A DNA stretch of 64,000 nt from contig JAFZKH010000001.1 in assembly GCA_017553685.1 (NCBI GenBank), positions 1-64,000 on the forward strand, written 5' to 3'. Position 1 is the first letter of the stretch; each line of letters begins with the position of its first letter. Shown piece by piece: positions 3,001-44,822 of the stretch. The notes beneath the pieces are model-generated. The model did no database searches. It saw nothing but the letters and a program-made list of their open reading frames with translations, and was not told the origin of the DNA. This DNA is from Bacilli bacterium. GTDB lineage: Bacteria > Bacillota_I > Bacilli_A > RF39 > UBA660. The translations under genes and the position numbers were made by a program.

Positions 3001-6000
3001 TTCTTATCAATTGATTGTATAGCAGACACAATAAGTTCAAGTTCTTATGGTTATATATCTGTGGGTGAATCATTAAATAATACTGGTAATAGAATAATAA
3101 CTTTATATGGTAATGACAAAACATATTCTACTATTCATAAACTTGAAAAAGGTAAAGTATACTATGTTTACTTTGGATTTGTTAAAGGCGGCGGAGATAT
3201 CAATAGATATGAAGGATTCAAAGTAAGTAACTTTAGTATACTTGGTGATGGACAACCTAATAGAGAATTCAAAATGTATGAAGATCCTGGATATTATATG
3301 TTTGTTAAACAAGATGATGGTACTTATATTCAAGAAAGTTATGGTCAATCTGGTAATCCAACAGCTCATGGATTCACTGCATTTGATTTAACAAATGAAA
3401 ATGAAGATGTTGATTTAATATTAAATATTAGAGTTGATAGTTCAAGTAGTGCTAGTAGATTCTGGATATATACATCAGATAATTCTAATTATGTAGGATA
3501 TGGTTCATCTCCTAACCAAATAATGGGAACAGCTTATGGCCTTAGTGATAATAGTTTATATAGAATTACACTTCCAAAAGGTAAATTAACTTATGTACAT
3601 TTTTGTGCAAGTACTTGGTATCAACCTGCTGGATTATTTAAAATTAACAGTATGACTTTAACAAAGAAAAACTCTGAAAATGCTGTAGCATCATCTGGAT
3701 TCTTAACTAATGATAGTGATGCATATACATTTGTAAAATATGATTATGATTTATACTCAATGAAGAATTTAGCAGCAAATGACATACCTGTTAATGCAAC
3801 AAGAATGTATTTAGATAGAAATACTGATGGAATAGTATTTAATGGGTCAAATTATTCATATGTTTCAAATTCAAACTTTAATTTAACAGACTATGAAGAA
3901 TCTGTATATGTAGAGTTTTCTACTACAAATAAGAATAATGTAATGTTATATACTGGTTCATCAAGTGAAAGAGTATGTATAGCATTATGGTCATCTTATA
4001 TTATTGTTTCAAATTATGGCCATTATAGTACATTTACAATGCCTGATACATTAGATGATGGTAATAAACATTCACTTATGACTACATATAAAGATGGTGA
4101 TTATAAGTTATATTATGATGGTGAAGCATTAGAAGCTTTAAGTAGTACAGACTATATAACTAGTGCAAATTCAAATAGTTATTTTGGTGTTAGATCATCT
4201 GGAAATTATTTTGTTGGACAAATCTATAAAGCAAAAATATTTAATAAAGAGATTACTCCTGATGAACTAAATAATACAGAAAACTTAAAAGTATATATTG
4301 ATGGTTCAAATGTAACATTCCCACATGATTCATATGAGAGTAATAACTATGGTGTTAATTATTCAATAGCACATTCATATGTAGCATATGATTTAACAGA
4401 TGTTACTGAAACTAAGTATTTATATGTCAATACATCAATAAGTAGTGAAAGTGGTGATGACCTTGGTTATGTTCAAGTAACTGATTCACCAGATACTCCA
4501 ACTTCTAATAGTGATTATTGGCTACGAGTTAGTGGCACAGCATATGATCAATCATTAGTAATAAAATTAAATAGTGGTGCTGTTAACTATGTACACTTTA
4601 GATATACTAAAGATAGAGATACAAATGTTGGTTTAGATGCCTTCATTATTAATGATGTTAGATTATTTGATAATATATCGGATGCTTATTCATATAATGC
4701 CGATTATTATACTAAGATTGATAATATGTATTTTGAAAAACCAGTAGTAAATGAAAAAGTAGATACTATTGAAATTCTTAAAGATATTACTTTAGATGCA
4801 TCTATGACTGTACCTGCTGAAAAAGAAGTAATACTTGATTTAAATGGATTTACATTAACATCAAATAAAGATGATTATGTAATTAAAAATAATGGTATAT
4901 TAACTATTACTGATAGTGAATATAAAGAAAGACATTTATCTAATGTTAACTATATAACTGAACAAGCAAGATTATTTGAAGAAGCAAAAACTTCATACTT
5001 AGCTGATAAAGCTGAATATGATGAATATGCTGGTTTATGTGATGGTTGCAGTCCAAGTGAAGAATATTTAATTGATCAGTCATTTGAAAAGGAATTTGAT
5101 TATTTTGGAGATTCTGAGGAGTTTAGCGCAACATATACAGGTAAATATAAACTTGAAACTTGGGGTGCTGCTGGAGCATATCTTGAAAGTAATAGACATG
5201 GTGGATATGGGGGTTATTCTGTAGGAAGCCTTGATTTAAATGCAGGAGATAAATTATATGTAACTGTAGGTGGACAAGGTACAAAAGAAAATGGTGCACC
5301 AGGATATAATGGTGGTGCACAATCTGGATCTTATGGTGGATCAGGAGGCAGTGGTGGTGCAACACATATTGCTACTGCACCTGGAGTGTTATCTTCATTT
5401 GTTGATAATCAATCTTCTATAATTATGGTTTCAGGTGGTGGAGCTGGTTATGTTACTTATGGATGTAGTACTTCAATTGGAGGCTCTGGTGGTGGAGCTG
5501 TAGGTGCTCCTAGTGCTAACGGTGGAACTCAAACATCTGGTGGTATATCATCTGGTCAAGCCAATGGTACATTTGGACAAGGTGCTTCTAATGCCTCTAA
5601 TCCAAACTGTTCTACTGCTGCTGGTGGAGGTGGTTATTTTGGCGGAGGCGCTTTATGTAATCAATGTACTAGTGGTGGTGGATCTGGATACATAGGATAT
5701 AGTACTTTATATGATAAAGCTATGTATTGTTATGATTGTACAGAAGCTACAAATACAGAAACTGACTTAGATATATTTACTGTATCTACTACTGGAACTA
5801 GTGAATATAAATCTAATGCTTGCCCAAATGGATATAGTGATAATCCTATAAGTAAATGTGCTAAAGCAGGTAATGGTTATGCAAAAATAACTTATCTAGC
5901 TACAGCTGAGGAATTAGCAGAATTAAAAAGAGATTTGCCAAAAACATATAATGTTAGAAAAGAACCTATATTCTTAGATTATATTCAAAATGTTGATTTT

Positions 6001-9000
6001 GATGATTCAATAAATGTTAACTCATTAACTCCATATTCAGATGTATCATTTACTATTTTTGGGGATGAAACATTCCATGGTGGAATTACATCTACTATTG
6101 CAGATGTATTATTAAATGAACAATATGCTAAATTAACAATAGATGGGGCTGCTATTAATGTTAATGTTAATAGTAAAATAGGTGTTGTTAATAGAGGTCT
6201 ATTAACAATGAAAAATGATGCTGTTATTAATGCTAATAACAGTAGTACTACAGGTATATTTAATGAATCTAATGGTGAATTAGTATTTACTCGTGGTATT
6301 TTAAATGCTGTTGGAAGTAGTTCAACTGGTTTACTAAATAGAAGTAATACTCCTTCTATTAATGGTGCTATAGTAGTAACTACACCAAGTAATGCTATTG
6401 GTATTAATAACCAAGCAACAAGTAATATTACTTATTCTGATTTAGATATTACAGGAGCTGGTCTTCAATTCCAAGATTTCTCAGTAGGAGATACAACTAT
6501 AACTAATTCTAGTATTAAATCTACTGGTAATAATTCATTCTATTTACCAACATTCCAAGGACCTGGAAATGTATATGTTGTTAATTCTAATTTCTATAAT
6601 ACATTTGGTATTAATAGATCTCCTAAAAATGTAATTGTAAGTAATTCAACATTAACTTATGTTTCTAATGTTGCTGGATATATTAGTATTAATTCCTCTT
6701 CTTTAGGATCTATAGATAATTACGGAGATGCTTATATTAACAATTCAACAATAAGTGGATCTGGTACATTAATAAATAACCAAATAGGTAGTATGTATAG
6801 TGGTGGAGCACAAAACGTTTCTAAAATGGTTATAACAGATTCAACAATTAATTCAACTGCTACTTCTGCAGTAACATTAATTAACAATTATCATAATTTA
6901 TCTGTAGTAAATACTAAGTTTAATAATGTTAATAATGTTAAATCTACGGTATTTAATAACCCAATGCAAACTTTTAATTCGTCATATAATTACTTTACAC
7001 CACATTATCCATATCTAAATATTAGTGGTAATACTGTAATTGATAAATCATTTGGTACAGCAATTAGTAATACAGGTGTTGTTACAATTGGTTCAAATGA
7101 TAAGAATGTAGATACAGTTTATAATTATGGATATACTGGTCATCAAGAAGAATTTATAGCACCAAGTGATGGTACTTATAAACTTGAAACTTGGGGAGCT
7201 GCTGGTGCTGAAGCACATCAATATGCTAGTGGTTGGGATGCTATGAGAAGAGGTGGATTTGGTGCTTATGCATCAGGAACTATTACTCTTCATGAAGGAG
7301 ATAAATTATATATCCATGTAGGTGGATATGGTTCAGGATATGGTTCTGGTACACGTGAGTATTCGGGAACATATAATGGTGGTGGAACTATAGGCGACGG
7401 AGGCTGGAGCTGGATATCTGGTGCCGGCGGAGGAGCTACTGATATTTCACTATCTAATGAAGATAATATATGGACTTATGATAATGGTAGATCTATATCT
7501 ATGAGAAGTAATGCTTCATATGAACAAAGACTTATTGTTGCCGGTGGTGGTGGAGGACAAGGTGGTTCTAATGCAGGACTTACTGTTGATACTTCTACTA
7601 GACTAGGTTATGGTGATGCTATGGGTGGTGGAGGTTACTATGGTGGTACCTCTCAACAAGGTGGTTCATCATATGTAGATGAATCATTAGGAAATAGAGT
7701 AATAATAGCAGGTTATGATGAAATGCCAGATTACAATTCAGGATTAATGAATGGTAATACTGGATTTGGTTATGCTAAGATTACCTTATTAAATAGTGAT
7801 AATGATATAGTATCTAATACACCAACAATAGCTGCTACTAACTATGGTATAACTGGTAATGGTAGAGTTATATATTATGATGGAACAATAACTGCTAAAA
7901 CTGCACTTAATACTGATATAGAAAAAGTTGCAGATGATTATGATATTTATAAAACTATGGATGGTGAAGATGAAGTATTTACTTTAGTAGCTAATGCTAA
8001 TTCAAGACCTGTTCCTGATGGAGAGGAAGAATTTGTAGCTGCTATAGGTAATGCTAAATATACAACTATTCAAAATGCAGTTGATGCATCTAATAATGGT
8101 GATGAAATAGATTTATTAGTTGATATTAATCAACAAAATATAGTAACTATTCCATCTAATAAAACTATTACGATTGACTATAATGGTCATAAAGTAATTA
8201 CTTATTCAGATAGTTATCTATTTGAAAATAATGGTACATTAACTATTAAAGATAGTGTTAATGAAAAACCAAAGAATACATTCTTTGGTGATAAATATAT
8301 TTATAATACTGGTACATTAAACTTAAATAATATTTATATTGAGAATTATATTTATGCTCAAAATATTATTGAGAATAATGAAGGTACTATAACTATGAAT
8401 GATGTTAGATTAGACCTTGGTGCTAATATAAGTGGTAAACAAGGTGTAGCTAACTCAGAAAATGGTGTTATTACTGTTACTAATAGTGTATTTAATTTAA
8501 CTAATGCTAATACATTGTTTAGTAATTATGGTTCATTAACATTAACAGGTAATAATATTGCTAATAATGCTTATGGACAATATATGGTTCTTAATAATAC
8601 AACTGGAACTGCTATATTAGATGGAAATAGTTATAGTGTTTCAGGTGATAGTAGATATGGTAGATACTTACTTAATAACTATGGTAGTGCTACTATAAAG
8701 AATATGACTACAAATATTGAGAATGTATATAATGCAGGCATATTAACATTAGAAGATAATACACTTCCATCTGGAAATGTTAATACTTCAGAAACTGGTT
8801 TAACTATTATTAATAATGGTACATATAACAATACATTTAATATTAATGGTACTGGTAGATCTATCGATGATAATGATGATTTATATGCATTTATAATGCA
8901 TGATGGTACTCTTAATAAAACATTTAATACAAATACTACAGGTATTTCTTGGATTAAATCAGGTACTATTACAGTTACTAGTGGATATGCTATTAATAAT

Positions 9001-12000
9001 ACTTCAGCAGGTATAATTAGACTTGGTATTCATGATAATTTTGCAGATACTAAAGCTAATACTAAACCAGTTATTAATGGTAAAACATATGGTATTTATA
9101 CATCTGCTCCTGCACTTGTAGTAGATATTTATGATGGTATTATAAGTGGTAATTCAGCTTATAATGCTACAGTTAGAAATACTGAAACTGGATATTCTAT
9201 TATTAGAGAATATGATTCGGAAAATAATATAGAAACTAAGTATTTAACTGATGAACCTATGTTTAAGAATGTCACTCAAAATATTGAATATAAAACTGTA
9301 AATGAATTAAATACTGCTATTACAAATAGTTTAGTTAATAATAATGATGTAATAGAAGTATATAGAGATATAACTATTAATAATGCTGATGATCCAATTA
9401 CTATTCCAAATGGATTAAGTATTACATTTGATATTAATGGTAAGATAGTAGACAAAAATAACGATAATATGTTTAATGTAGAAGGAGAATTAACATTAGT
9501 TGATAATGTTAATAACTCTAATGGTATTATTGATTCTACTATTGGTTCATTATTTATAAATAATGGAACAATTAATATTAGTAGTGGTAAATATACTTCA
9601 GAAAAGGCATCTGTTGATACAACATTAATGGTTAATAATGAAAATGCTACGTTAAATATTAGTGGTGGAACATTTACTAAGTATTTTGATAAATTAAGTT
9701 ATAGACTTAGATATTCTGGTTCTATTTTAACTAACTATGGTGATGCAAATATTACAGGTGGTAAATTTGTTCCAAATGGTTCATATATAATAGGTTATAC
9801 AAGAAGATGGGTTGATGAAGGTTGGTATGACTGGGATCAAATTTATACATCTACTGTATTCTTAAATAAGGAAACAGGTGTATTAAATGTTACAGCAGGA
9901 GCTACTTTTGAAGGTATTATAAGTAATACATGGCATGATACATATGAAGGTGGATATTGGGAAGGTTCTGGTAGAAATAATGATGGTCAATTGATTTATA
10001 ACTATGGAACTGCTACATTTACAGGAACTACAACTAGTCCTGCAAGTATTGGATTAAATGCTGGTACATTAACATTTGATAGTGTTAATATTACTGGATT
10101 TAAACAAATTAATTCTCAAGAACATCCAAACTTTAAAAACTCTGGAACATTTAATTTAATTGATTCTAATATTGATACTTCATTTAAATTTGTAGATAAT
10201 GAAGGTGGAATAATTAATATTAGTAATTCAACAATAGAGTCTAATGTTTCGATTTCTTATATTATTAATAGTTCTACAAGTGATACAACTGCAGTAACTA
10301 TTGAAGATTCTGAAATCCATAATAGAGTTTCAGGAACAATTATTACTGGAGCTACTGAATTAAGTATAAAAGATTCAATATTAGATACAGTAAGTGGAAC
10401 TGTTGTAAGTAATTCATCTAAAGGATTATCTATTAATAATTCAACACTTACAACTGGTAGTGGAACTGCTGTTAGTCAAACTAGTGGAACTGCTATTATT
10501 AAGAAGAATAGTAGTGTAGTAACTTCTAGTGGAGTAGGTATTCAATTATCTAGTTCAACATTAACTATTGGAGAACCTATATCAGATGATAGTGCTGTTT
10601 CTAAAACATATCCACTTATTAAAGGAACTACTTATGGTATTAGTGATTCAAGTAGTACTATTAATATGTATGATGGTATTATTTATGGTAAAACTAATCC
10701 AGTAGCTAATGCTATTACAAACATTGAATCTGGTTACATGATTATAAATGATACAGAAGATGATTATAAGACAAATTATCTTGATAGAGTTCCAATAGTT
10801 CAAAATATTACTCAAGCAACTGCTCAAGATGAAAAGAAATATTATGATTTAGATGAAGCATTTAGAAATGCTGTAGATGGTGATACACTTCAAATGATTA
10901 CAAATTATAGTAATTTACCTGATTCAGTAACTGCTGAAAATAATCATAATGTAATATTTGACTTAAATGGATTCTTTATTAGACAAATTAATGATACTTT
11001 AATTACTAATAATGGAACATTAAAGATAATTGATAGTAGTCAAAATAAGACTGGTCAAATAATAGGTATATCTGGTTCTAAAGTAATTGATAATAGTGGA
11101 ACACTAAACTATAATGGTGGTAAGATTTCATCTAGTGCTTTGAAGTTATTAATTAAGAATAATACAGGTGCTACTTTAAATATTAGAGAAGATGCTAAGA
11201 TAATAAGTTCTATAGAAGCTACTATAGTTAATAATGATGGAACACTAAATATTTATAATGGTGCTTATTTATATAATATTGGTGGTTCAATTGGTTCTTG
11301 GGCATCAAGTAATAGTGGTCTACCTATGATTATTAATAATAATTTATTCAATATTATAGATTTAAATAATGATGATGATGAAAATACATCAAGTGATTAT
11401 GATGCACCATGGTTATATAGTAATGGTAATGCACAAGGACAAGAAGTATTCTCTGGTGCAGATGTTGTATTTGATGATCCAACTATATTAACTACAACTG
11501 GAGCTACAACTAATATTTATGGTGGTATATTCAATAATGGAAGTACTACTTCACCAAATGGTGCACAAATACTTAAAAACTATGGTACAGTTAATATTAA
11601 AAACCTTGATAGTTATGCATATGCAGTTGGATTAAACTTAGGTACATTAAATATTGAAGATTCATATTTACATAACTTTAGAATGACTGCATTAGTTAGT
11701 AGAGGTAATTTAACTATTAAAGATACTACTATTAATTTCTATTCAGATACTAGTTATAATGTACTTTTAGGTAATTATATAAGACTATATTCAAGTGGTA
11801 ATTTATTGTTTGATAATGTTGATTTTATAGGTGGAAATAGTACTAATGCATCTGATTACTTTATATATTTAACAGGTAATTCTGAAATTAGAAATTCAAG
11901 AATTAATCTAACTTCTTATGAAAAAGTTATTTATAATACAAATGTGTTAGATATTAATAATTCCACAATTACCATGAATAAATCTTTAGGTAATACTGGT

Positions 12001-13212
12001 AAATTAACTGTTAATAATTCAAATATTACTGCTAATACTACGGTTATATCTAATACTGGAACATTCAACTTAAAGAATGGTTCAACTATTACTGCTACTA
12101 GTGGTAATGGTATAGATACAAGTGGTACTATTAATATTGATAATGGTACAAGTATTAATGGTAGTGAATATGGTATTTATATAAGTGGAGGAACTGCTAA
12201 TATTGGTGAAATAGGAAATGTACCTGATCAAACAACACCATATATTGAAGGATCTTCATTTGGTATTTATAGAAGTACTCAATCATCTAATTTAAACTTC
12301 TATGATGGTTTAATTATTGGTCAAACAGGACCTAATGCTATATATGGTGGAGTAACTAACGTTGAAGCTGGTTATGAAACTGAAGATATTATTGTTACTG
12401 ACGGAGATATTCAAAAACATAATGAATACTTAGTTGTTAGTGCTACATCTGTAGCAGTAGCTCAAGTAGGAACTTATACATTTGCATCAGTTGGATCTAT
12501 TAGTCCATCTAAAGCTCTTCAAAATGCAATTAACTTTGCTATTGGAGATGGAACTGATGTAAAGATAGTTAACTTAGTTACAAATGTTGACTTAATTAAT
12601 GATGAAGTATCACTTACAGCATCTATGCCTGTAACAGTTAATAGAAATGGTAATAATGTTTATTATAATGATGTATATACTGTTGGAAGTAATATCACAT
12701 TAAATGATAATGGTGTAGGTGGTAATATATCTAGAATAGTAGCAGATATCTTTGATTTATCTTATAATGCTAAGAACATAGTTATTTATGAACTTAGTGA
12801 TGGTTCAAACTTAGATTCATTAAAAACATATAAACTATATAAAGATGGAGAACTAGTTAGTCTTGCAAAAGAAGAACTAGGAAGATATAGTTATAAAGGT
12901 AAGAATGAAGAAATGACTCCTATTAAAGGAAGATTATATATTGATAACTTATCTAAAGGTTCTTATAGATTAGTATCTAATGATAATAAGTCTATAGAAT
13001 TTAGTATTGATGCTGATGGACATATAACTGGTAATGTAGCTGAGAATCCAAAGGATCCTGGAAAAGTAAATCCTAAATCAGTTGCTAAAGCAGAAGTTTC
13101 GTTTGCCATTCAAACAGGTTATAGTAGACATTTATACTGGATATTAACTATTCCAATTATTGTAGTATTATTTGCTATAATGAAACTTAGTAAAAAAAGA
13201 GAAACTAACTAG
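1..13212 (+). CDS. Giant multidomain surface protein, 5' end outside window
   Basis: The frame is open from base 1 to the TAG at 13210-13212, giving about 4,400 visible residues, so the start lies upstream of the window. A TTG at 562 lies inside a repeat and is not a credible start. Roughly in order: InlB/Listeria-Bacteroides-type B repeats (1-1520, recurring GYxFxGW and TVTIPxGSxGxRxYxANY patterns), an Ig/FN3-like stretch (1520-2110), mixed beta-rich modules (2110-3700), a LamG/concanavalin-like module (about 3830-4290), a first glycine-rich domain (5130-5900), beta-helix repeats (6000-7110), a second glycine-rich domain (7140-7790) and a long right-handed beta-helix with 'NNGTLTI'-like rungs (7800-12400). 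The C-terminus has one membrane helix and a short basic tail. I see no LPXTG motif, so it is probably a membrane-anchored adhesin or stalk. The ligand is unknown. Confidence 0.85.
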   Translation, partial: TFTENFGTLKVLSESERRGYNFLRYDHDGGGTYNNLTYLFDNDDATLTAIYEIINYRINYENITTEERDFLRNKTTYNVETETFTLSNPNTRVDGQGNNYQDFLGWDDGNGNVSLTVTISKGSIGDRTYTAVWRENQDDYAIRYNLHEGTLEAGKSNPNTYTRQTETFTLNNPSKNGYNFIGWTGTGLTVATETVTIPKGSSGDRDYEANYEVVPYEIHYHGLTSVEEATLGNPDGYNIESASITLHNPTREGYEFLGWSGTDITDKSTSVTIPTGSTGERNYTANFKAIEYSLTYTLNGGDYETGKSNPPTYTIESDPIILNNPSKTGYTFKGWFGTDLTGNENTTVTIPTGSIGHRSFLANYTPITYTITYDYDGGNLPQGVTNIDRYTIESAEITFNAPEKDGYTFLHYKEGNNIITSIPTGSTGDKSLKAYYQINKFNVVYHNEDIVYATDEVDWNDKTSAPSENPTKAHGIFLYWSEDGINPFDFETKITSNKDLYAIYEMVIEPVITYTPVLDETTNRTWVCSNSNDDNCGDTVTITSGKDDSTYTLYYKIGDGTAVEYTGPFKVYENTTITTFAKKSDIYSPNTTEDIVNVDSIAPTINNPGTGAMSFNMSISGTAQDAGSGVKQFILYVKEKDALVYDDTFTYTSNVFDGIKDHAENYDHTFYGVQDNTEYIVKIVAEDYVGNISEKEVEVKTNPYVARVVGKNNMLWYTVDPDTKEFVLEDGKEFLLFDSIQSAVDYCADVECTIQTNPILPVVSESVVIGSEQNITIDLDGRGITSDESATFVNNGELHIVDRNPREINGEHESIGFLSNTVNKAIVNNNVLVVGEGSSEASETFIYPEMDRPIIDGKTNAIEQNGTFYFFDGKIYGDTVALLDSGEDPITQYSYNVVLTGENDRNVGYLDKVTDPEARIRSTYYAKLKVNNNINAFDSSRSGTVTTESAKILSKIKQYTDYGFIYDEVNDEIYNGNQSTANTTAISYIKLDLTDYEQDQFLSIDCIADTISSSSYGYISVGESLNNTGNRIITLYGNDKTYSTIHKLEKGKVYYVYFGFVKGGGDINRYEGFKVSNFSILGDGQPNREFKMYEDPGYYMFVKQDDGTYIQESYGQSGNPTAHGFTAFDLTNENEDVDLILNIRVDSSSSASRFWIYTSDNSNYVGYGSSPNQIMGTAYGLSDNSLYRITLPKGKLTYVHFCASTWYQPAGLFKINSMTLTKKNSENAVASSGFLTNDSDAYTFVKYDYDLYSMKNLAANDIPVNATRMYLDRNTDGIVFNGSNYSYVSNSNFNLTDYEESVYVEFSTTNKNNVMLYTGSSSERVCIALWSSYIIVSNYGHYSTFTMPDTLDDGNKHSLMTTYKDGDYKLYYDGEALEALSSTDYITSANSNSYFGVRSSGNYFVGQIYKAKIFNKEITPDELNNTENLKVYIDGSNVTFPHDSYESNNYGVNYSIAHSYVAYDLTDVTETKYLYVNTSISSESGDDLGYVQVTDSPDTPTSNSDYWLRVSGTAYDQSLVIKLNSGAVNYVHFRYTKDRDTNVGLDAFIINDVRLFDNISDAYSYNADYYTKIDNMYFEKPVVNEKVDTIEILKDITLDASMTVPAEKEVILDLNGFTLTSNKDDYVIKNNGILTITDSEYKERHLSNVNYITEQARLFEEAKTSYLADKAEYDEYAGLCDGCSPSEEYLIDQSFEKEFDYFGDSEEFSATYTGKYKLETWGAAGAYLESNRHGGYGGYSVGSLDLNAGDKLYVTVGGQGTKENGAPGYNGGAQSGSYGGSGGSGGATHIATAPGVLSSFVDNQSSIIMVSGGGAGYVTYGCSTSIGGSGGGAVGAPSANGGTQTSGGISSGQANGTFGQGASNASNPNCSTAAGGGGYFGGGALCNQCTSGGGSGYIGYSTLYDKAMYCYDCTEATNTETDLDIFTVSTTGTSEYKSNACPNGYSDNPISKCAKAGNGYAKITYLATAEELAELKRDLPKTYNVRKEPIFLDYIQNVDFDDSINVNSLTPYSDVSFTIFGDETFHGGITSTIADVLLNEQYAKLTIDGAAINVNVNSKIGVVNRGLLTMKNDAVINANNSSTTGIFNESNGELVFTRGILNAVGSSSTGLLNRSNTPSINGAIVVTTPSNAIGINNQATSNITYSDLDITGAGLQFQDFSVGDTTITNSSIKSTGNNSFYLPTFQGPGNVYVVNSNFYNTFGINRSPKNVIVSNSTLTYVSNVAGYISINSSSLGSIDNYGDAYINNSTISGSGTLINNQIGSMYSGGAQNVSKMVITDSTINSTATSAVTLINNYHNLSVVNTKFNNVNNVKSTVFNNPMQTFNSSYNYFTPHYPYLNISGNTVIDKSFGTAISNTGVVTIGSNDKNVDTVYNYGYTGHQEEFIAPSDGTYKLETWGAAGAEAHQYASGWDAMRRGGFGAYASGTITLHEGDKLYIHVGGYGSGYGSGTREYSGTYNGGGTIGDGGWSWISGAGGGATDISLSNEDNIWTYDNGRSISMRSNASYEQRLIVAGGGGGQGGSNAGLTVDTSTRLGYGDAMGGGGYYGGTSQQGGSSYVDESLGNRVIIAGYDEMPDYNSGLMNGNTGFGYAKITLLNSDNDIVSNTPTIAATNYGITGNGRVIYYDGTITAKTALNTDIEKVADDYDIYKTMDGEDEVFTLVANANSRPVPDGEEEFVAAIGNAKYTTIQNAVDASNNGDEIDLLVDINQQNIVTIPSNKTITIDYNGHKVITYSDSYLFENNGTLTIKDSVNEKPKNTFFGDKYIYNTGTLNLNNIYIENYIYAQNIIENNEGTITMNDVRLDLGANISGKQGVANSENGVITVTNSVFNLTNANTLFSNYGSLTLTGNNIANNAYGQYMVLNNTTGTAILDGNSYSVSGDSRYGRYLLNNYGSATIKNMTTNIENVYNAGILTLEDNTLPSGNVNTSETGLTIINNGTYNNTFNINGTGRSIDDNDDLYAFIMHDGTLNKTFNTNTTGISWIKSGTITVTSGYAINNTSAGIIRLGIHDNFADTKANTKPVINGKTYGIYTSAPALVVDIYDGIISGNSAYNATVRNTETGYSIIREYDSENNIETKYLTDEPMFKNVTQNIEYKTVNELNTAITNSLVNNNDVIEVYRDITINNADDPITIPNGLSITFDINGKIVDKNNDNMFNVEGELTLVDNVNNSNGIIDSTIGSLFINNGTINISSGKYTSEKASVDTTLMVNNENATLNISGGTFTKYFDKLSYRLRYSGSILTNYGDANITGGKFVPNGSYIIGYTRRWVDEGWYDWDQIYTSTVFLNKETGVLNVTAGATFEGIISNTWHDTYEGGYWEGSGRNNDGQLIYNYGTATFTGTTTSPASIGLNAGTLTFDSVNITGFKQINSQEHPNFKNSGTFNLIDSNIDTSFKFVDNEGGIINISNSTIESNVSISYIINSSTSDTTAVTIEDSEIHNRVSGTIITGATELSIKDSILDTVSGTVVSNSSKGLSINNSTLTTGSGTAVSQTSGTAIIKKNSSVVTSSGVGIQLSSSTLTIGEPISDDSAVSKTYPLIKGTTYGISDSSSTINMYDGIIYGKTNPVANAITNIESGYMIINDTEDDYKTNYLDRVPIVQNITQATAQDEKKYYDLDEAFRNAVDGDTLQMITNYSNLPDSVTAENNHNVIFDLNGFFIRQINDTLITNNGTLKIIDSSQNKTGQIIGISGSKVIDNSGTLNYNGGKISSSALKLLIKNNTGATLNIREDAKIISSIEATIVNNDGTLNIYNGAYLYNIGGSIGSWASSNSGLPMIINNNLFNIIDLNNDDDENTSSDYDAPWLYSNGNAQGQEVFSGADVVFDDPTILTTTGATTNIYGGIFNNGSTTSPNGAQILKNYGTVNIKNLDSYAYAVGLNLGTLNIEDSYLHNFRMTALVSRGNLTIKDTTINFYSDTSYNVLLGNYIRLYSSGNLLFDNVDFIGGNSTNASDYFIYLTGNSEIRNSRINLTSYEKVIYNTNVLDINNSTITMNKSLGNTGKLTVNNSNITANTTVISNTGTFNLKNGSTITATSGNGIDTSGTINIDNGTSINGSEYGIYISGGTANIGEIGNVPDQTTPYIEGSSFGIYRSTQSSNLNFYDGLIIGQTGPNAIYGGVTNVEAGYETEDIIVTDGDIQKHNEYLVVSATSVAVAQVGTYTFASVGSISPSKALQNAINFAIGDGTDVKIVNLVTNVDLINDEVSLTASMPVTVNRNGNNVYYNDVYTVGSNITLNDNGVGGNISRIVADIFDLSYNAKNIVIYELSDGSNLDSLKTYKLYKDGELVSLAKEELGRYSYKGKNEEMTPIKGRLYIDNLSKGSYRLVSNDNKSIEFSIDADGHITGNVAENPKDPGKVNPKSVAKAEVSFAIQTGYSRHLYWILTIPIIVVLFAIMKLSKKRETN

Positions 13213-21818: not shown

Positions 21819-21825
21819 TGACTTA

Positions 21826-22023
21826 ATTGATGTTGAAGAAAAGTAGTAATAAATAGACTATTCAAAGAGAGTTAGTGGTTGGTGTAAACTAATAATAGAA
21901 AGTTTATGAACTTGTTTTGGAGTTAAATCGTTATTCGCGTTAAGAATTAAAGAGCATAGAAAATCTATGAAGTAAGGTGGTACCGCTATTATTAGTCCTT
22001 ACATCATAGGTTTTTATTTTTTT
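21826..22023 (+). ncRNA. T-box riboswitch, Leu (specifier CTT)
   Basis: A tRNA-sensing leader. The stem I landmark AGAGAGTTAG, the apical GGTTGGTG segment and the specifier region GAA-CTT-gtt-TTGGAG are visible, with the specifier CTT (Leu) at 21911-21913. The conserved T-box AAGGTGGTACCGC is at 21974-21986. A terminator hairpin pairs 21965-21977 with 21997-22009 and is followed by a T tract. Uncharged tRNA-Leu should stabilise the antiterminator. The codon matches leuS two genes downstream. The 3' half is almost identical to that of the Phe T-box at 44074-44163. Confidence 0.93.
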
Positions 22024-22035: not shown

Positions 22036-22416
22036 ATGGAAAAGTATTTAAAAATAGGAATTATGTTTATAATATTTTTTGGAATAGTATATTTATCATA
22101 CTATACATTTATATTAAGACCATATGCTAGGGCAAGAAAGAAACAAAGAGAAAAGAAGATGCCTGCAGATCTTAGTATTATGATAAATTATTTTAAAATA
22201 GATATAGAAAAAATAGGAGCTATATATGCCCTTAGACTACTGAATTTTGTTAATGCATTTTTAGTAGCATTAATAGCTACTTTAATAGTAGGTTTAAAGG
22301 GGTATGTACTTCAAATGATAACTGCTGCATTATTAGTATTTCCATTAATAGTATGGTCATATAGTATAGTAGCTAGAGTTCTAAGAAGAAAAGAAAGGAA
22401 GAAAGAAAATGTATAA
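22036..22416 (+). CDS. Small membrane protein in the Leu T-box operon
   Basis: This 126-residue protein has an N-terminal membrane helix (about 7-28), a basic stretch '[15 protein letters not shown]', a short soluble helix, two further membrane helices (about 68-88 and 92-113) and a basic C-terminal tail. I do not recognise a named family. The 'MPADL.I..NYFKID' block resembles a type of uncharacterised membrane protein common in Bacillota. It is the first gene after the T-box and overlaps leuS by 8 bases, so it is co-regulated with leucyl-tRNA supply. No function can be assigned. Confidence 0.75.
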
Positions 22417-25225
22417 TCATAAAGAAATAGAAAAGAAATGGCAAAATTATTGGGATGAACATAAAACATTTAAGACTGATGCTTGGGATTTTTCTAAGCC
22501 AAAGTTTTATGCACTTGATATGTTTCCATATCCATCAGGAGTAGGTTTACATGCTGGACATCCTGAAGGATATACTGCTACTGATATAGTATCAAGAATG
22601 AAAAGAATGCAAGGGTATAATGTTCTTCATCCAATGGGATTTGATTCATTTGGATTACCAGCAGAACAATATGCTATTCAAACAGGTAATCATCCATCTG
22701 GATTTACTGAAAAAAATATTGAAACATTTACTGCACAATTAAAGATGCTTGGTTTTTCATATGATTGGGATAGAGAAGTATCTACATCAGATCCAAGTTA
22801 TTATAAATGGACTCAATGGATATTTAAACAATTATATAATGATGGATATGCTAAACAAATAGATATGCCTGTTAACTGGTGTGAAGAATTAGGAACAGTT
22901 CTTGCAAATGATGAAGTTATTGATGGTAAATCTGAAAGAGGAGGATATCCTGTTGTTAGAAAGAATATGAAACAATGGGTTATAGATATACCTGCATATG
23001 CTGAAAAATTATTAAATGGTTTAGATGAATTAGACTGGCCTGAATCTACTAAAGAAATTCAAAGAAACTGGATTGGTAAGAGTACTGGTGCATTAGTTGA
23101 ATTTAAAGTAGCAGGTACAAATGAAAAGTTTAAAGTATTTACTACACGTTGTGATACTTTATTTGGAGCTACATATTGTGTATTATCTCCAGAACATAAA
23201 TTAGTAGATATGATTACTACTAAAGAACAAAAAGATGCAGTAGATGCTTATAAGAAAGAATGTGCATCAAAGAGTGATCTTGAAAGAACAGAGTTAAATA
23301 AAGATAAGACAGGTGTATTTACTGGGGCTTATGCTATTAATCCTGTTAATAATACTGAAATTCCTATTTGGATAAGTGATTATGTTTTAGCTAGTTATGG
23401 TGAAGGTGCTATTATGGCAGTTCCTGCACATGATGAAAGAGATTATGATTTTGCTAAGAAGTTTAATATTCCAATTATCCAAGTATTAGAAGAAGTTACT
23501 GGAACTCCACATGAAAATGAATCTACTAAGAATTCAATAGTAGCTATAGTATATGATGAAAAGAATGATAAGTATTTAACTATTAATTGGCATGAAAAAG
23601 GTGGAAGATTATTTATTGGTGGTTCAATTAAAGATGGAGAAACTCCACTTGAATGTGCTATTAGAGAAGTTGAAGAAGAAACTGGATATACTGATTTAGA
23701 ATTTGTATGTGAAGTACCAAAGATAAATCATCATTATTATGCATATAATAAAGATAAATACTTTAATATTGAATGTACAGGTATATTATTCAAATTAAAG
23801 AGTGATAAGCAAGATAATAGAAATCTTGATGATGATGAAGTATTTGATGTAGAATGGGCTTCTAAAGATGTTATTGATTCTGAAATAAAAGATGAATTAC
23901 ATCGTAAGACATTTGAATATACAAGTAATCCAGGTGCTATGATTGGTGATGGAATTCATATTAATTCTGAATTCTTAAATGGATTAAATAAAGAAGATGC
24001 TATCAATAAGATGATAGAATTCTTAGAAGAAAATAATTGTGGTAAGAAAAAGATTAATTATCGATTAAGAGAATGGATATTTGCTCGTCAAAGATATTGG
24101 GGAGAACCAATACCTGTTATTCATTTAGAAGATGGAAGAGATGTAGTATTAGATGATTCTGAATTACCATTAATTCTTCCTGAACTTGAAGACTATAAAG
24201 GTAAGAATGGTCATGCTCCACTTGAAAATGCTACTGATTGGGTAAATGTAGAAGTAGATGGTGTTAAAGGAAAAAGAGAAACATCTACTATGCCAGGTTC
24301 TGCTGGATCATCTTGGTATTTCTTAAGATATATAGATCCACATAATGATAATGAATTAGCAGATAAAGAATTAATTAAACACTGGATGCCAGTAGATTTA
24401 TATGTTGGTGGACCAGAACATGCTGTAGGACATTTATTATATTCTAGAATGTGGAATAATTTCTTATATGATAAAGGTATAGTTAGTGTTGCAGAACCAT
24501 TTAAGAAATTAGTACACCAAGGAATGATTTTAGGATCTAATGGTATTAAAATGGGTAAGAGATTCCCTGAATTCGTAGTTAATCCTAATGATGTAGTAGA
24601 AGAATATGGTGCTGATACTCTTAGATTATATGAAATGTTTATGGGACCTTTAGAAGCAGATAAACCATGGAATGATGAAGCTGCTAATGGAGCTCATAGA
24701 TTCTTAGAGAGAGTATATAGATTATATTTTGAAGAAAATAAAATAGGTGGAGATAGTACTTCGCTTGAAAAGATATATAACCAAACTGTTAAGAAAGTAA
24801 CTGAAGATTATGAATCATTAAACTTTAATACAGCAATATCTCAAATGATGGTATTTATAAATGCTGTATATAAAGAAGATAGTTTTAATCCAGAGTATGC
24901 TAAAGGATTTGTTAAATTATTAAATCCAATTGCTCCTCATATTACTGAAGAAATATGGAATGTAGTATTTAAGAATACTGATTCTATTGCTTATGAAGAA
25001 TGGCCTAAATATGATGAATCTAAATTAGTAGAAGATTCATTTGAAGTTGTTGTTCAAGTAAATGGTAAAGTAAGAGGTAAGTTAGCAATAACAGATAATA
25101 TGTCTGAAGATGAAATAAAATCTAAAGCAAAAGAAATAGAGAATGTTCAAAGATTTATCGAAGGACATGAAATAGTAAAAGAAATAGTTATACCTAAGAA
25201 ATTAGTTAGTATAGTTATTAAGTAA
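22409..25225 (+). CDS. leuS: Leucyl-tRNA synthetase with embedded Nudix domain
   Basis: This 938-residue bacterial-type LeuRS charges tRNA-Leu. The class I HIGH motif appears as HAGH (48-51), the editing (CP1) domain includes '[19 protein letters not shown]', and 'RYWGEPIP' and the C-terminal 'VNGKVRGK' are typical. The protein is about 135 residues longer than usual (near 800). The excess is one insertion at about residues 366-500, between the editing-domain segment '[11 protein letters not shown]' and '[15 protein letters not shown]'. The insertion holds a complete Nudix box: G405, E411, then REVEEETGY (419-427), fitting Gx5Ex7REUxEExGU. The KMSKS loop reads KMGKR (714-718). The gene is under Leu T-box control and ends at a palindromic terminator. 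Confidence 0.95.
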
Positions 25226-27572: not shown

Positions 27573-27804
27573 ATAAATCAAAGGCAAAGAAGAGGAAAAG
27601 TAATAATTACTAAGTATTAGAGAGTTCTTAAAATTGCTGAAATAAGAATTACGATAGAATTATGAAAGAACACCTTGGAGCTTATTAATTGAAATAGCAG
27701 TAAATTAATACGTTAACTTACGTTACAGTTTGAGGTTATAGTAATATAACAAATTAAGGTGGTACCACGACTAGATCGTCCTTTTGGATGACTAGTCTTT
27801 TTTG
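27573..27804 (+). ncRNA. T-box riboswitch, Asn (specifier AAC)
   Basis: A tRNA-sensing leader. The stem I landmark AGAGAG lies near 27620. The specifier region reads GAAAG-AAC-acc-TTGGAG, with AAC (Asn) at 27669-27671, the same three-base distance from TTGGAG as in the Leu leader. The T-box AAGGTGGTACCACG is at 27756-27769. A terminator hairpin runs from about 27769 to 27798 and is followed by T6. The codon fits the operon, which makes Asn-tRNA(Asn) through AspRS and GatCAB. A GAA (Glu) codon overlaps AAC by two bases. Confidence 0.9.
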
Positions 27805-27821: not shown

Positions 27822-28268
27822 ATGAAAAAAGTATTTATTATACTAGGGGTGTTAATTATATGCTTTGTTATTGCTGGTTGTAGTTCAAGTACAAAAGAAG
27901 CAGATGAATTAGTTGGAAAGAATTTATCAGGAGAGCAATTATACCAAATATATAAAGAAAAAGGATTTAAATATATAGATTTAAGCATGGATAATGGTGT
28001 TAATAATATTGTTTTTGAAAATGAAAATATAGAATTGAGTAAGTTTTATAATAAATATCCTGATTATAATGATTATCCATCAGGAACAAATTATTATTTT
28101 AGTAATAGTGATATTAATAATGAAAAAGTTAATGTAAATGGAGAAGGTAATAAAAAGCAATATAAAGCATATATAGAATGGTTAAAAAAAGAGGAATTAT
28201 CTACAGATAATGTAATAGATTTACTTGAATATGTAGAAAAAAATGCATGGAAAGATAATTGGAGGTAA
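27822..28268 (+). CDS. Small lipoprotein in the Asn T-box operon
   Basis: This 148-residue protein has a lipoprotein signal peptide: basic start, hydrophobic core and lipobox 'VIAGC' with the Cys near residue 20. The mature part is polar and Asn/Lys-rich; I do not recognise a domain. It is the first gene after the Asn T-box and is followed by the AspRS gene after 3 bases, so its expression is tied to Asn-tRNA supply. Why a lipoprotein sits there is unknown. Confidence 0.75.
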   Translation: MKKVFIILGVLIICFVIAGCSSSTKEADELVGKNLSGEQLYQIYKEKGFKYIDLSMDNGVNNIVFENENIELSKFYNKYPDYNDYPSGTNYYFSNSDINNEKVNVNGEGNKKQYKAYIEWLKKEELSTDNVIDLLEYVEKNAWKDNWR

Positions 28269-28271
28269 GAA

Positions 28272-29561
28272 ATGAAAAGAATTTTAATTAATGAATTAGT
28301 AGAAAATGAGGAAAGTAAAATATCTGGGTTTGCTTCTAAGATAAGAGATACTAAATATATGATATTTGTAATCTTAAAAGATAGAAGTGGATCTATTCAA
28401 GTTTCACTTGATAAAGGTACTCAGGAAGAACTTTGTAAAGAATTAGATGGAGTACTTGCTGGATCAGTAATTGAATTTACTGGTAAGATGGTTAAAAGTG
28501 AATACGTTAAACAAGGTGGTAAAGAATTTTTACCTACTGAAGTTAATGTAATTTCTAAAGCAGAAGCATCTCCACTTGAAGAAAATGCAAATATAGATAC
28601 TAGATTAAATTATAGATGGATAGATTTAAGAACTGATAAGAATCAACTAATGCTTAATGTTCAAAGTACATTTGTAGAAGGTATGAGAGAACATTGTTAT
28701 AAAGAAGGATTTACTGAAATACATTCTCCAAAATTAATTGGAGCAGCTTCAGAATCTGGATCATCAGTATTTGAAGTAGAGTATTTTGATAGAAAAGCTT
28801 ATTTAGCTCAAAGTCCACAATTCTATAAACAAATGGCATTAGCATCAGGACTTGAAAGAGTATTTGAAGTAGCTCCATGTTTTAGAGCAGAAAACTCAAA
28901 TACAAATAGACATGCTACTGAATTTACTTCATTTGATATTGAAATGGCTTATATAGATTCATTTGAGGATGTAATGGATTTCGAAGAAGATTTAATTATA
29001 GCAGGTTTAACTAAAGTAAAAGAAAAATATGATGAACAAATAAAAGATTTATTTAATACGGAAGTTATTATTCCAACAAAACCATTTCCAAGAATTAAAC
29101 TAGAAGACTTATATAAAGAAATGGAAAAGAGATATGGTTATAAAATACCAGAATTTGATGTTGGTGATATGAATGCTGAAGCAGAAGGACTTGCTTATAA
29201 GTATGCTATGGAAGTATATGGACATGAATTTATATTCATAACAGATTTTCCTAAAACAAAGAGAGCATTCTATCATATGAGAAAGAATGATGTTCCACAA
29301 GGTTATGACTTAATCTGGAGAGGTACTGAAATAACTACTGGAGCTCAAAGAGAACATAGATATGATGTATTAAAGAAACAATGCGAAGAAAAAGGTTTAA
29401 CTAAAGACGTTGAATTCTATTTACAATTTTTTAAATATGGTTGTCCAGCACATGGTGGATTTGCTATAGGAGTAGATAGATTTAATATGTTACTTTTAAA
29501 CATTCCATCTGTTAAAGAAGAAATGTTTATCTTTAGAGGACCTAATAGGTTAGAACCATAG
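28272..29561 (+). CDS. aspS: Archaeal-type AspRS, probably charging tRNA(Asn)
   Basis: This 429-residue class IIb synthetase has an N-terminal OB-fold anticodon-binding domain (1-105) and a catalytic core. 'SESGSSVFEVEYFDRKAYLAQSPQFYKQ' (given by its parts SSVFEVEYF and LAQSPQFYKQ), 'FRAENSNTNRHATEFTSFD' and 'GGFAIGVDRFNMLLL' identify the archaeal/eukaryal AspRS branch, not AsnRS, and it lacks the bacterial GAD insert. Bacteria that carry this form beside a bacterial AspRS and GatCAB use it to make Asp-tRNA(Asn) for amidation. Its place first in the synthetase/gatCAB operon behind an Asn-type T-box supports that role. Discrimination itself cannot be read from sequence with certainty. Confidence 0.88.
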   Translation: MKRILINELVENEESKISGFASKIRDTKYMIFVILKDRSGSIQVSLDKGTQEELCKELDGVLAGSVIEFTGKMVKSEYVKQGGKEFLPTEVNVISKAEASPLEENANIDTRLNYRWIDLRTDKNQLMLNVQSTFVEGMREHCYKEGFTEIHSPKLIGAASESGSSVFEVEYFDRKAYLAQSPQFYKQMALASGLERVFEVAPCFRAENSNTNRHATEFTSFDIEMAYIDSFEDVMDFEEDLIIAGLTKVKEKYDEQIKDLFNTEVIIPTKPFPRIKLEDLYKEMEKRYGYKIPEFDVGDMNAEAEGLAYKYAMEVYGHEFIFITDFPKTKRAFYHMRKNDVPQGYDLIWRGTEITTGAQREHRYDVLKKQCEEKGLTKDVEFYLQFFKYGCPAHGGFAIGVDRFNMLLLNIPSVKEEMFIFRGPNRLEP

Positions 29562-29570
29562 GAGGATAAA

Positions 29571-31322
29571 ATGAATAAATATAGAACACATACAATTAAT
29601 GAATTATCTAAAGATATGATTGGTGAACATATTGTAGTTTCTGGATGGGTTGAAAATATAAGAGACCATGGTGGTGTATTATTCCTAGATTTAAGAGATG
29701 AATTTGATGTTCTTCAAGCAGTATCAAATGATGATGATATGTTTAAAGGATTAGCTAAAGAATCTGTTATTAGATTAGAAGGTACTATTAGAGAAAGATC
29801 AGAAGATACAATTAATGAAAAACTAAATACTGGTACTATTGAGTTAGTAGTAGATTCATTAGAGGTTTTAGGAGAATCTCTTCATGAATTACCATTTGCT
29901 ATTAAACAATCTAAACAAACTAAAGAAGATGTAAGACTTAAATATAGATATCTAGATTTAAGAAATGATGATGTTAAGAAAAATATCTTACTAAGAAGTG
30001 AAATACTTCATTTCCTTCGCAATAAGATGTATGATCTAGGTTTTACCGAAGTTCAAACTCCAATTCTTACAGCATCATCTCCTGAAGGTGCTAGAGACTT
30101 TGTTGTACCATCTAGATTATTTAAAGGAAAATTTTATGCTTTACCACAAGCACCTCAAATATATAAAGAATTATTAATGGTTGGTGGTATTAGTAAATAT
30201 TTCCAAATTGCACCATGTTTTAGAGATGAAGATGCAAGAAAAGATAGAACATTAGAGTTTTATCAATTAGACTTAGAAATGTGTTTTCCTGAAGAAGAAG
30301 ACATCCTAAAAGTAGGAGAAGAAATTTTCTATTCTACATTTAGTAAATTTTCTAATAAAGAAGTTAGTACTGTTCCATTTAGAAGAATAGCTTATAAAGA
30401 TGCTATGAATGATTATGGTACTGATAAACCAGATTTAAGAAACCCTCTTATCATTAAAGATGCATCTGAAGTATTAAAGTATACAACATTTAAACCATTT
30501 GCTAATAGTACTATTAAAGTAATAGTAGTAGATAACATAGGTGATAAACCAAATAGTTGGTTTAATGAAGTAGTAGACTTTGCTACTAGTATTGGTATGC
30601 CTGGTATTGGATATATTACTTTAATGGAAGATGGAACATTTAAAGGACCAATAGATAAATTCTTATCTGATGAAGAAAGAGAAAACTTAATTAAAGAATT
30701 TGATATGAAAACAGGTTCAGTTATGTTCTTTATAGCTAATAAGAACTTAAAACATGCTCAAAAGTTTGCAGGTCAAATTAGAACTGAACTAGGTGAAAAA
30801 CTTGGATTAATAGATAATAATAAATTAGAATTATGTATTATTAAAGATTTTCCAATGTTTGAATATGATGAAATTGAAAAGAAATATAAATTCTGTCATA
30901 ATCCATTTAGTTTACCTCATGGAGGAATGAAAGATTATGATGATAAAGATATAGAAGATATTTTAGCTTACCAATTTGACTTCGTATGTAATGGTAATGA
31001 AATGGCATCTGGTGCTATTAGAAACCATGATATTAAATCTTTAATTAAAGGATTTGAAGTTGTTGGATATACAAAAGAAGAAGTTGAAAAGAGATTTACA
31101 TCTTTAATGACTGCATTCAAATATGGATGTCCTCCACATGGTGGAATGGCTCCAGGTATTGATAGAATGATTATGCTTATTCAAGATGAACCAAACTTAA
31201 GAGAAGTTCAAGCATTCCCAACAAGTGCATCTGGACAAGACTTTATGATGGGATCTCCAAGTTATTTAACTTCAAAACAATTAGAAGAATTAGGTATAGA
31301 AATTAAAAAAGAGGAGGAATAA
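29571..31322 (+). CDS. aspS: Aspartyl-tRNA synthetase, bacterial type
   Basis: This 583-residue full-length bacterial AspRS has an N-terminal OB-fold domain (1-105), class II motif 2 'FRDEDARKDRTLEFYQLDLEM', an inserted GAD-like domain (about 285-420) and motif 3 'GMAPGIDRMIML'. It charges tRNA-Asp. It sits between the archaeal-type AspRS and gatC with a 9-base gap upstream and 1 base downstream, so it is part of the same T-box-controlled transcript. Having both forms in one operon suggests a split of labour: this one for tRNA-Asp, the other for tRNA-Asn (inference from known dual-AspRS organisms). Confidence 0.93.
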   Translation: MNKYRTHTINELSKDMIGEHIVVSGWVENIRDHGGVLFLDLRDEFDVLQAVSNDDDMFKGLAKESVIRLEGTIRERSEDTINEKLNTGTIELVVDSLEVLGESLHELPFAIKQSKQTKEDVRLKYRYLDLRNDDVKKNILLRSEILHFLRNKMYDLGFTEVQTPILTASSPEGARDFVVPSRLFKGKFYALPQAPQIYKELLMVGGISKYFQIAPCFRDEDARKDRTLEFYQLDLEMCFPEEEDILKVGEEIFYSTFSKFSNKEVSTVPFRRIAYKDAMNDYGTDKPDLRNPLIIKDASEVLKYTTFKPFANSTIKVIVVDNIGDKPNSWFNEVVDFATSIGMPGIGYITLMEDGTFKGPIDKFLSDEERENLIKEFDMKTGSVMFFIANKNLKHAQKFAGQIRTELGEKLGLIDNNKLELCIIKDFPMFEYDEIEKKYKFCHNPFSLPHGGMKDYDDKDIEDILAYQFDFVCNGNEMASGAIRNHDIKSLIKGFEVVGYTKEEVEKRFTSLMTAFKYGCPPHGGMAPGIDRMIMLIQDEPNLREVQAFPTSASGQDFMMGSPSYLTSKQLEELGIEIKKEEE

Positions 31323-43943: not shown

Positions 43944-43949
43944 TAGTTA

Positions 43950-44163
43950 AACAAGCGATGATAAGGACATAGTAATATATACCTGTTTTATAGAGAGTTA
44001 ACATTTGGTGGAAGTTAATAAATGTATGATATATGAATTCACCCTTTAAGCTTATAAGTAATGTTATACGTGAATTCGCGTTAAGAATTAAAGAGCATAG
44101 ATATCTATGAAGTAAGGTGGTACCGCTATTATTAGTCCTTACATCATAGATTTTTATTTTTTT
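43950..44163 (+). ncRNA. T-box riboswitch, Phe (specifier TTC)
   Basis: A tRNA-sensing leader. Stem I shows AGAGAGTTAA and the apical TTTGGTGG. The specifier region reads GAA-TTC-acc-CTTTAAG with TTC (Phe) at 44038-44040. The T-box AAGGTGGTACCGC is at 44114-44126 and the terminator pairs 44105-44117 with 44137-44149, followed by a T tract. The codon matches pheS and pheT downstream. From 44074 on it is nearly identical to the Leu leader. Confidence 0.93.
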
Positions 44164-44813: not shown

Positions 44814-44822
44814 GAGGAAAAT

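Follow-up and report, generated by a model that had tools for sequence, protein, structure and literature searches.

Leucyl-tRNA synthetase (LeuRS) is an essential, slowly evolving enzyme, and proofreading by its CP1 domain is a textbook case; what, then, is a complete enzyme of a different kind doing inside that domain? The question is raised by the leuS gene in a 64,000-nucleotide stretch of a Bacilli bacterium (GTDB lineage Bacteria; Bacillota_I; Bacilli_A; RF39; UBA660), namely positions 1 to 64,000 of contig JAFZKH010000001.1 in GenBank assembly GCA_017553685.1, the whole of which is referred to here as the window. An original prediction, made from the letters of the window, held that the editing region of this LeuRS contains a full Nudix hydrolase domain. 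This is confirmed here, and the fusion recurs in LeuRS well beyond the window's genome, including in distantly related small-genome bacteria.

The reading that we favour, and to which we give about an even chance, takes the insert for an active pyrophosphohydrolase module that an otherwise ordinary LeuRS may carry or lack and that is exchanged horizontally, its likeliest substrate being a small nucleotide. A normal synthetase, with its synthetic and editing parts, would carry a catalytically competent Nudix module in the CP1 loop, and this module would be an active, metal-dependent enzyme working beside LeuRS and outside leucine proofreading. Loci and genomes other than the window are designated below by our own L and G numbers.

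A Nudix domain embedded in the CP1 editing domain

The embedded domain is borne out by Pfam E-values, by alignment with insert-free LeuRS, and by a fold model (Table 1). In the whole protein, the Pfam NUDIX model matches residues 376-493 (E 3.9e-14, 53.2 bits against a cut-off of 21.1), and on the insert alone PF00293 reaches E 3.7e-15 and 56.6 bits at the same cut-off. According to the alignment, the 148-residue insert occupies a site held by 7-13 residues in insert-free LeuRS; the place first proposed (23490-23915) was right, and its extent is corrected to that in Table 1. The Nudix box, GX5EX7REUXEEXGU, is complete, and the box residues originally named all hold with the exception of E422, which falls on the x after REU in REUxEExGU, a variable position; the catalytic residues are E423 and E424, and not the E422/E423 pair that had been put forward for mutation. 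The post-box motif reads FYAxHK in many Patescibacteria inserts.

Outside the insert, the protein is in most respects a standard bacterial LeuRS (TIGR00396, CP1 PF13603), sharing with it the whole synthetase, the editing motifs, and an upstream T-box. The reading frame is unbroken on both sides of the insert, and TTRCDT and AHDERD, the motifs of the CP1 editing activity, are intact, in agreement with the earlier description of intact, in-frame flanks. Apart from the insert, a difference lies at the place of KMSKS, which reads KMGKR at residues 714-718 (24548-24562). For the HIGH signature, HAGH stands at residues 48-51. In the whole-protein search of relatives, this LeuRS is the only row of its genome among the matches listed.

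Table 1. Coordinates of the LeuRS gene, its insert, its upstream elements, and the free-standing CP1-Nudix genes (window positions unless a locus is named)
Feature	Position	Strand	Basis
leuS, leucyl-tRNA synthetase, 938 aa	22409-25225	+	Open reading frame list; NCBIfam leuS_bact (TIGR00396) 1040 bits, cut-off 548.4
Inserted stretch, LeuRS residues 361-508, in place of the 7-13-residue CP1 loop	23489-23932	+	Alignment against insert-free LeuRS
Nudix domain proper (PF00293)	23534-23893	+	Pfam; AlphaFold model of insert
Nudix box, residues 405-427 (G405, E411, R419, E420, E423, E424, G426)	23621-23689	+	Sequence reading
Post-box motif NHHYYAYNK, residues 440-448	23726-23752	+	K448 nearly invariant in insert family
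CP1 motif TTRCDT, residues 245-250, intact	23141-23158	+	Sequence; motif of CP1 editing
CP1 motif AHDERD, residues 340-345, intact, ending 15 residues before the insert	23426-23443	+	Sequence; motif of CP1 editing
T-box leader ahead of the 126-aa frame and leuS	21824-22003	+	Rfam RF00230, 107 bits
Small membrane-like open reading frame, 126 aa, between T-box and leuS, overlapping the leuS start	22036-22416	+	Nature by eye
L104 free-standing CP1-Nudix	L104:4668-5513		PF13603 and PF00293 both over cut-off
L113 free-standing CP1-Nudix	L113:4710-5552		PF13603 and PF00293 both over cut-off
L119 free-standing CP1-Nudix	L119:4686-5540		86% identity to L113
L127 free-standing CP1-Nudix	L127:4605-5507		PF13603 and PF00293 both over cut-off

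A chance origin of the match is ruled out by the Pfam E-values, the recurrence in independent assemblies, and codon-level constraint, and misassembly is ruled out by the presence of the same fusion in many independent assemblies together with purifying selection; the view of a true embedded domain stands. The claim that the fusion had not been described also held within the literature covered: no description was found among open-access titles and starts of abstracts. The text of a paper on the Nudix clan (PMC5389931) nowhere uses the term 'tRNA synthetase'. A parallel by name is the NCBIfam model NF040702 (ileS_w_GNAT), also a class I synthetase model with an extra enzyme domain, but for another synthetase (IleRS) and another domain (N-acetyltransferase).

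Fold and place among Nudix hydrolases

The insert is confidently predicted to adopt a Nudix fold. Its AlphaFold model, built from an alignment of 43 insert-family members, most of them embedded in LeuRS (two are not: L106, a stand-alone Nudix, and L113, one of the free-standing proteins of Table 1), has a predicted local distance difference test score (pLDDT) of 93.2 and a predicted template modelling score of 0.87. With this model, Foldseek returned 473 PDB matches at E <= 0.001, with Nudix hydrolases on top. The best solved fold match is 2azw (Z 19.6, root-mean-square deviation 1.9 Å over 141 residues, 18% identity), a MutT/nudix family protein of Enterococcus faecalis whose title gives no substrate, and the next matches are tied within one Z unit of each other: 2yvm (Thermus Ndx2, 16.4), 5c7t (16.2), 6m6y (MutT1, 16.1), and 3i7u (15.9). 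The ties in this second tier cut across substrate types: 2yvm and 5c7t stand for the class of ADP-ribose pyrophosphatases and nucleoside-diphosphate-sugar hydrolases (one such hydrolase is solved with ADP-ribose), and beside them are MutT1, fungal Nudix effectors, and, as 3i7u, a hydrolase of diadenosine tetraphosphate (Ap4A).

By sequence, the profile search of the PDB was headed by the Ap4A hydrolase 1f3y (E 1.5e-8, over profile positions 19-77 of 125), followed by dihydroneopterin-triphosphate diphosphatase 2o1c (3.6e-8), the Ap4A hydrolase 3i7u (1.3e-7), and then Dcp2 and others, while the window's insert as a single query matched Dcp2 decapping enzymes best (E 4.6e-6). Compared with known Nudix hydrolases such as 2azw, the insert shares the fold and the catalytic box but is set apart by the low identity, by sub-cut-off NCBIfam scores, by its HHYYAYNK / FYAxHKxxNR motif, and by its embedding in a synthetase.

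Distribution and conservation of the insert

The original prediction had suggested surveying LeuRS proteins for Nudix domains inside CP1, and such a survey finds carriers in the window's family, in Patescibacteria, and in other labelled metagenome-assembled genomes (MAGs). Relatives were searched with the whole insert-bearing LeuRS in 98 genomes, comprising 59 of the window's family and 39 others of the class. A full-length match was present in at least 13 of the 59 (twice in G005, in pieces in G010) and in none of the 39 among the matches listed; two of the 59 gave no LeuRS-level match. When the insert itself served as query in a phylum sample of 295 genomes, it was found in a 939-946-aa frame in two genomes, both of the window's family, and none of the other matches listed sits in a frame longer than 469 aa.

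A scan of genome contigs, in which RE[IV]xEETGY was one of two patterns and box conservation is thus partly by construction (these sequences were excluded from the residue counts below), listed further LeuRS carriers among uncultured Bacilli, Erysipelotrichaceae MAGs, and Clostridia-labelled MAGs (L099, L111). The Patescibacteria carriers bear the labels Parcubacteria, Paceibacterota, Taylorbacteria, Berkelbacteria, Buchananbacteria, Magasanikbacteria, Kaiserbacteria, Moraniibacteriota, and Saccharibacteria, and one carrier MAG is labelled Pacearchaeota (L124). For a frequency, 192 genomes were taken from the phylum of G356 (Candidatus Parcubacteria, the genome of L112), which had been chosen as a known carrier; they hold 24 LeuRS with this Nudix family, or 23 in 191 genomes once G356 is left out. 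Two more LeuRS of this sample have other Nudix types, one at another place (L229) and one at the same CP1 loop (L228), the latter being of a different subfamily with 41 bits to the insert profile. A Nudix domain of the LeuRS-insert family also occurs in one ValRS (L179:112-2760, + strand), where it lies beyond the editing region and not at the place used in LeuRS. Phage origin was considered and set aside: of 39 loci listed, most match only over a short stretch around the box, and the one whose match was read, the top one (L189), is a 214-aa stand-alone frame that is ADPRase-like by eye.

Residue conservation was counted in 13 inserts of the family, drawn from 12 genomes (G005 contributing two and the partial G010 none), and in 20 of the 24 Patescibacteria LeuRS, the rest being incomplete or left out; all had been retrieved by whole LeuRS or by profile, not by the box motif. 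The box residues are conserved among homologous insertions, as the original prediction required. The box G, E, R, and E are kept in 13/13 family inserts and the E423/E424 positions in 12/13; in Patescibacteria the box positions are kept in 17-20 of 20, arginine being the least conserved (17), and the post-box lysine is kept in 13/13 and 19/20, respectively. Across eight close pairs, the ratio of nonsynonymous to synonymous substitution rates (dN/dS) of the insert is 0.05-0.41, rough values given that dS is large in several. Seven pairs allowed the ratio to be calculated for insert and LeuRS body alike, and in 6 of them it is higher in the insert. At the codon level, these values indicate that the insert is under purifying selection.

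It is highly improbable that the domain is a non-catalytic Nudix serving RNA or ligand binding or allosteric control of LeuRS. Such Nudix domains exist, and one family insert (L016) has kept the domain after losing the catalytic pair; nevertheless, the full box is kept nearly everywhere, in some sets found partly through the box motif and also in the counted sets, which were not.

Exchange of the insert between LeuRS lineages

A body tree was computed by a quick search without a mixture model from 96 of 117 LeuRS rows, with duplicates and partial or odd loci omitted; 20 of its rows are labelled insert-free: 17 belong to the family, two (L029 and L036) to other families within the class, and one is L117, whose Nudix lies elsewhere in LeuRS. 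One omitted locus, L133, has the same 1257-aa LeuRS-like frame on both strands, probably an inverted-duplication assembly artefact. The LeuRS bodies of the family's carriers form lineages A, B, and C, and the insert state requires nine changes on the tree, at least seven of them on well-supported branches.

Pairwise comparison of 31 inserts matching HYYA or HYFAYNK shows that the insert is less conserved than the body within a lineage (mean body/insert identity 73.8/63.9% in A over 45 pairs, 69.3/62.3% in B over 153, and 70.8/58.1% in C over 3), and yet nearly as similar between lineages as within them (A-B 52.5/62.4% over 180 pairs, A-C 50.3/57.8% over 30, B-C 49.7/56.6% over 54). Over all pairs, body and insert identity correlate weakly (Spearman 0.32). 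One example is L014: its body shares 88% identity with that of insert-free L046 from the same genus and 53% with the window's, whereas for the insert the identity with the window is 77%. The insert tree (149 columns, 9 of 31 inner branches starred) rejects the monophyly of lineage A (p-AU 1e-68) and of lineage B (p-AU 1e-7). This mosaic rests largely on MAGs, among which individual chimeras are possible, G005 being a candidate (two insert-bearing LeuRS, 6% contamination).

From these sequence comparisons, the insert is shown here to behave as a transferable cassette that moves between LeuRS lineages whose bodies are about 50% identical. Vertical inheritance with losses only is ruled out for the main family insert type, because insert similarity does not track body lineage. 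Given this transfer and the presence in distant small-genome bacteria, the Nudix insert is probably a beneficial addition and no accident.

A resistance trait, too, would look patchy and pass between LeuRS lineages; in this reading, the Nudix domain would destroy, at its target, a leucyl-adenylate mimic or a nucleotide antibiotic directed at LeuRS. We regard this as most improbable: the loci read offer no inhibitor or resistance context, although no systematic search for such context was made, and the known mimic agrocin 84 has a phosphoramidate, not the classical Nudix bond.

Other hydrolases inside synthetases

Further predicted hydrolase domains within Patescibacteria LeuRS are shown here for the first time. 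Multi-domain scans were run on long frames chosen deliberately rather than as a random sample, and these LeuRS also hold a serine hydrolase (PF06821), HAD, Ham1, ASCH, and a nucleotidyltransferase-like stretch, at the CP1 loop and elsewhere. The most elaborate cases are a 1735-aa LeuRS frame (L109:4206-9410) with three Nudix, one alpha/beta hydrolase, and one HAD domain, and a 1795-aa LeuRS frame (L230:1177-6561) with HAD, Ham1, Nudix, and a nucleotidyltransferase-like stretch. Simpler combinations are Nudix with Ham1 (L229), ASCH (L114), or HAD (L135), and serine hydrolase with Nudix (L110, L115, L123, L125, L126, L128, L130, and L239). Stand-alone fusions of related make-up also occur in Patescibacteria, namely a 350-aa Nudix-Ham1 protein (L235) and a 331-aa protein joining Nudix to an inosine/xanthosine-triphosphatase-like domain (L234, by eye).

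With PF06821, a model not built from inserts, 16 frames longer than 700 aa were found in the 192 genomes, three of them below the family cut-off; their hosts are 13 LeuRS, one ValRS-like protein, one glycosyltransferase, and one other, the last two assigned by eye. The ValRS-like frame (L254:1665-5255, - strand) lacks an N-terminal half and has HAD, alpha/beta hydrolase, and Nudix domains inserted. A Ham1 scan gave three frames longer than 700 aa, two of them LeuRS, and in the insert-profile search all 27 frames of at least 600 aa were class I synthetases, a count biased by a model built from such inserts.

This variety bears on whether the insert is an inert or semi-neutral passenger, that is, whether CP1 loops simply tolerate in-frame insertion of a small hydrolase gene of a common kind, whose loss from an essential gene must be precise and whose activity, where present, may be needless for LeuRS. 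We consider this unlikely. Several unrelated hydrolases in several LeuRS loops, the patchy presence of the insert, and the fusion of Nudix and serine hydrolase to glycosyltransferases as well (by eye) would all be expected of a passenger; against it stand the box conservation and low dN/dS, the transfer between lineages with one preferred loop, and the fact that large hosts are nearly all class I synthetases (the biased 27/27, and 14/16 of the PF06821 frames).

Free-standing CP1-Nudix proteins

Four loci (L104, L113, L119, and L127) encode 281-301-aa frames in which a degenerate CP1 surrounds the same Nudix. The box and FYA[GA]YKGVNR are invariant in all four, whereas TTRxDT and AHD are not kept, so that free-standing proteins combining a CP1 remnant with a Nudix domain, their editing residues gone, are shown here from their sequences as a new form. 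In the genomes of L113 and L119, LeuRS has 811-816 aa and no insert; in that of L127, it has 942 aa and an uninterrupted CP1 loop; the genome of L104 also has an insert-bearing LeuRS (L099). A Ham1 gene lies directly upstream of the L127 gene, tRNA_edit, ASCH, and acetyltransferase genes lie upstream of the L119 gene, and CYTH genes and a weak radical-SAM match neighbour L104. The model of the free-standing form, from an alignment of four, reached a pLDDT of 52 and was left unused. Like tRNA_edit (PF04073) proteins, of which one is encoded near L119, these are stand-alone relatives of a synthetase editing domain; unlike them, they have no CP1 editing residues and carry a Nudix box instead.

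Since the free-standing forms keep the box and lose the editing residues, the window's LeuRS has its CP1 editing residues intact, and most sampled relatives lack the domain, the Nudix and CP1 editing activities look separable. A part of the domain in leucine proofreading is conjectural.

CP1 receives the tRNA 3' end, which gives some ground for a clean-up of that end, in which the Nudix domain in CP1 would remove an adduct such as a toxSAS 3'-pyrophosphate, and HAD or serine hydrolase other adducts. The co-inserted HAD, serine hydrolase, and ASCH domains and the position of L119 near tRNA_edit and ASCH genes fit such a role. The toxSAS toxins are reported to pyrophosphorylate tRNA CCA ends (PMC11559606, PMC11782079), and the Nudix enzymes MutT and NudG are discussed with (p)ppGpp, a 3'-pyrophosphate (PMC5845004, PMC7593582). 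We nevertheless judge it decidedly unlikely: the editing residues are gone from the free-standing forms, Ham1 partners fit nucleoside triphosphates (NTPs) better, and the toxSAS link was rejected, as the insert shows no sign of co-occurrence with small RelA/SpoT frames among the matches listed in family genomes (frames under 300 aa in at least 4 of 11 insert-bearing and at least 10 of 38 other family genomes). Many family genomes hold, in addition to the long Rel, a further RelA_SpoT frame of about 480-530 aa, one of about 200-240 aa, or both.

Possible function of the module

If the insert is an optional, active pyrophosphohydrolase, its substrate would most likely be a small nucleotide, either an Ap4A-type dinucleotide arising from aminoacyl-adenylate chemistry or a damaged or non-canonical NTP; any single choice among substrates is doubtful. 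Aminoacyl-adenylates react with ATP to give Ap4A. Aminoacyl-AMP, one of the substrates first proposed, is chemically ill suited to a Nudix enzyme, being a mixed anhydride and not a nucleoside diphosphate. YqeK, the symmetrical Ap4A hydrolase, passes its cut-off in 4 of 59 family genomes as against 35 of 39 others of the class; its loss from most of the family and the Ap4A hydrolases among the insert's matches were counted in favour of clean-up of an Ap4A-type by-product, whereas Ham1 as a fused or neighbouring partner was counted in favour of NTP sanitation. The insert may provide an alarmone link, as first suggested, or a by-product link. The module would be kept when useful and would spread by recombination through the conserved LeuRS flanks.

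Several observations weigh against this reading. The fold matches of the insert mix several substrate types, and it stays far below the NCBIfam cut-offs of named enzymes (YtkD 32/154.4, RppH 28.8/118, MutT 27.4/97.9, and NudB 26.8/103 bits), the YfcD model likewise being touched far below its cut-off. Among the matches listed, 44 of the 57 family genomes with a LeuRS-level match show no full-length match, and the L016 insert has K and T in place of the EE pair. In Patescibacteria, Nudix or serine hydrolase domains are also fused to glycosyltransferases (L259, L231-L233, by eye), and therefore not every fusion need be functional. YqeK is not specifically missing from insert-bearing family genomes (present in 2/13, against 2/46 others), and compensation by the insert for YqeK loss was accordingly rejected, the pattern lying between families and not within the family. 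Stand-alone Ham1 shows no pattern in the family either (6/13 insert-bearing genomes against 24/46 others).

Upstream region and other features of the window

The T-box leader ahead of leuS (Table 1) has CUU (Leu) at the expected specifier place, by eye, which fits leuS as a regulated, working gene. Two further T-box leaders lie in the window: one at 27578-27786 precedes genes at 27822-31322, two of which are AspRS/AsnRS-like by eye, and one at 43949-44143 precedes 44175-48235, with a pair at its end that looks PheS/PheT-like by eye. At 48265-49180, an acetyltransferase-like gene is followed by an ASCH-like gene (by eye), and immediately ahead of the free-standing L119 gene a similar-looking acetyltransferase likewise sits next to an ASCH gene. 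Positions 562-13212 encode a repeat-rich protein of 4216 aa, surface-type by eye.

Implications

Beyond the original prediction, the analysis adds the exchange between LeuRS lineages, the spread in Patescibacteria, the other co-inserted hydrolases, and the free-standing forms. More broadly, and tentatively, the CP1 domain of LeuRS, and at times of ValRS, in Patescibacteria and the window's Bacilli family may be a swap-in socket for Nudix, Ham1, HAD, serine hydrolase, and ASCH domains, which would be acquired, exchanged, stacked, and sometimes released as CP1-hydrolase proteins, forming a second layer of quality control on tRNA 3' ends or on nucleotide by-products where these arise. For a specialist, it is unexpected that an essential synthetase should carry an exchangeable hydrolase in its editing domain. 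The finding may mean that in small-genome bacteria a product of aminoacylation is worth destroying on the spot, that tRNA ends are repaired there, or that selection protects passenger enzymes within essential genes, and each of these would be new. The insert also marks a site within an essential enzyme where nature has made a portable fusion.

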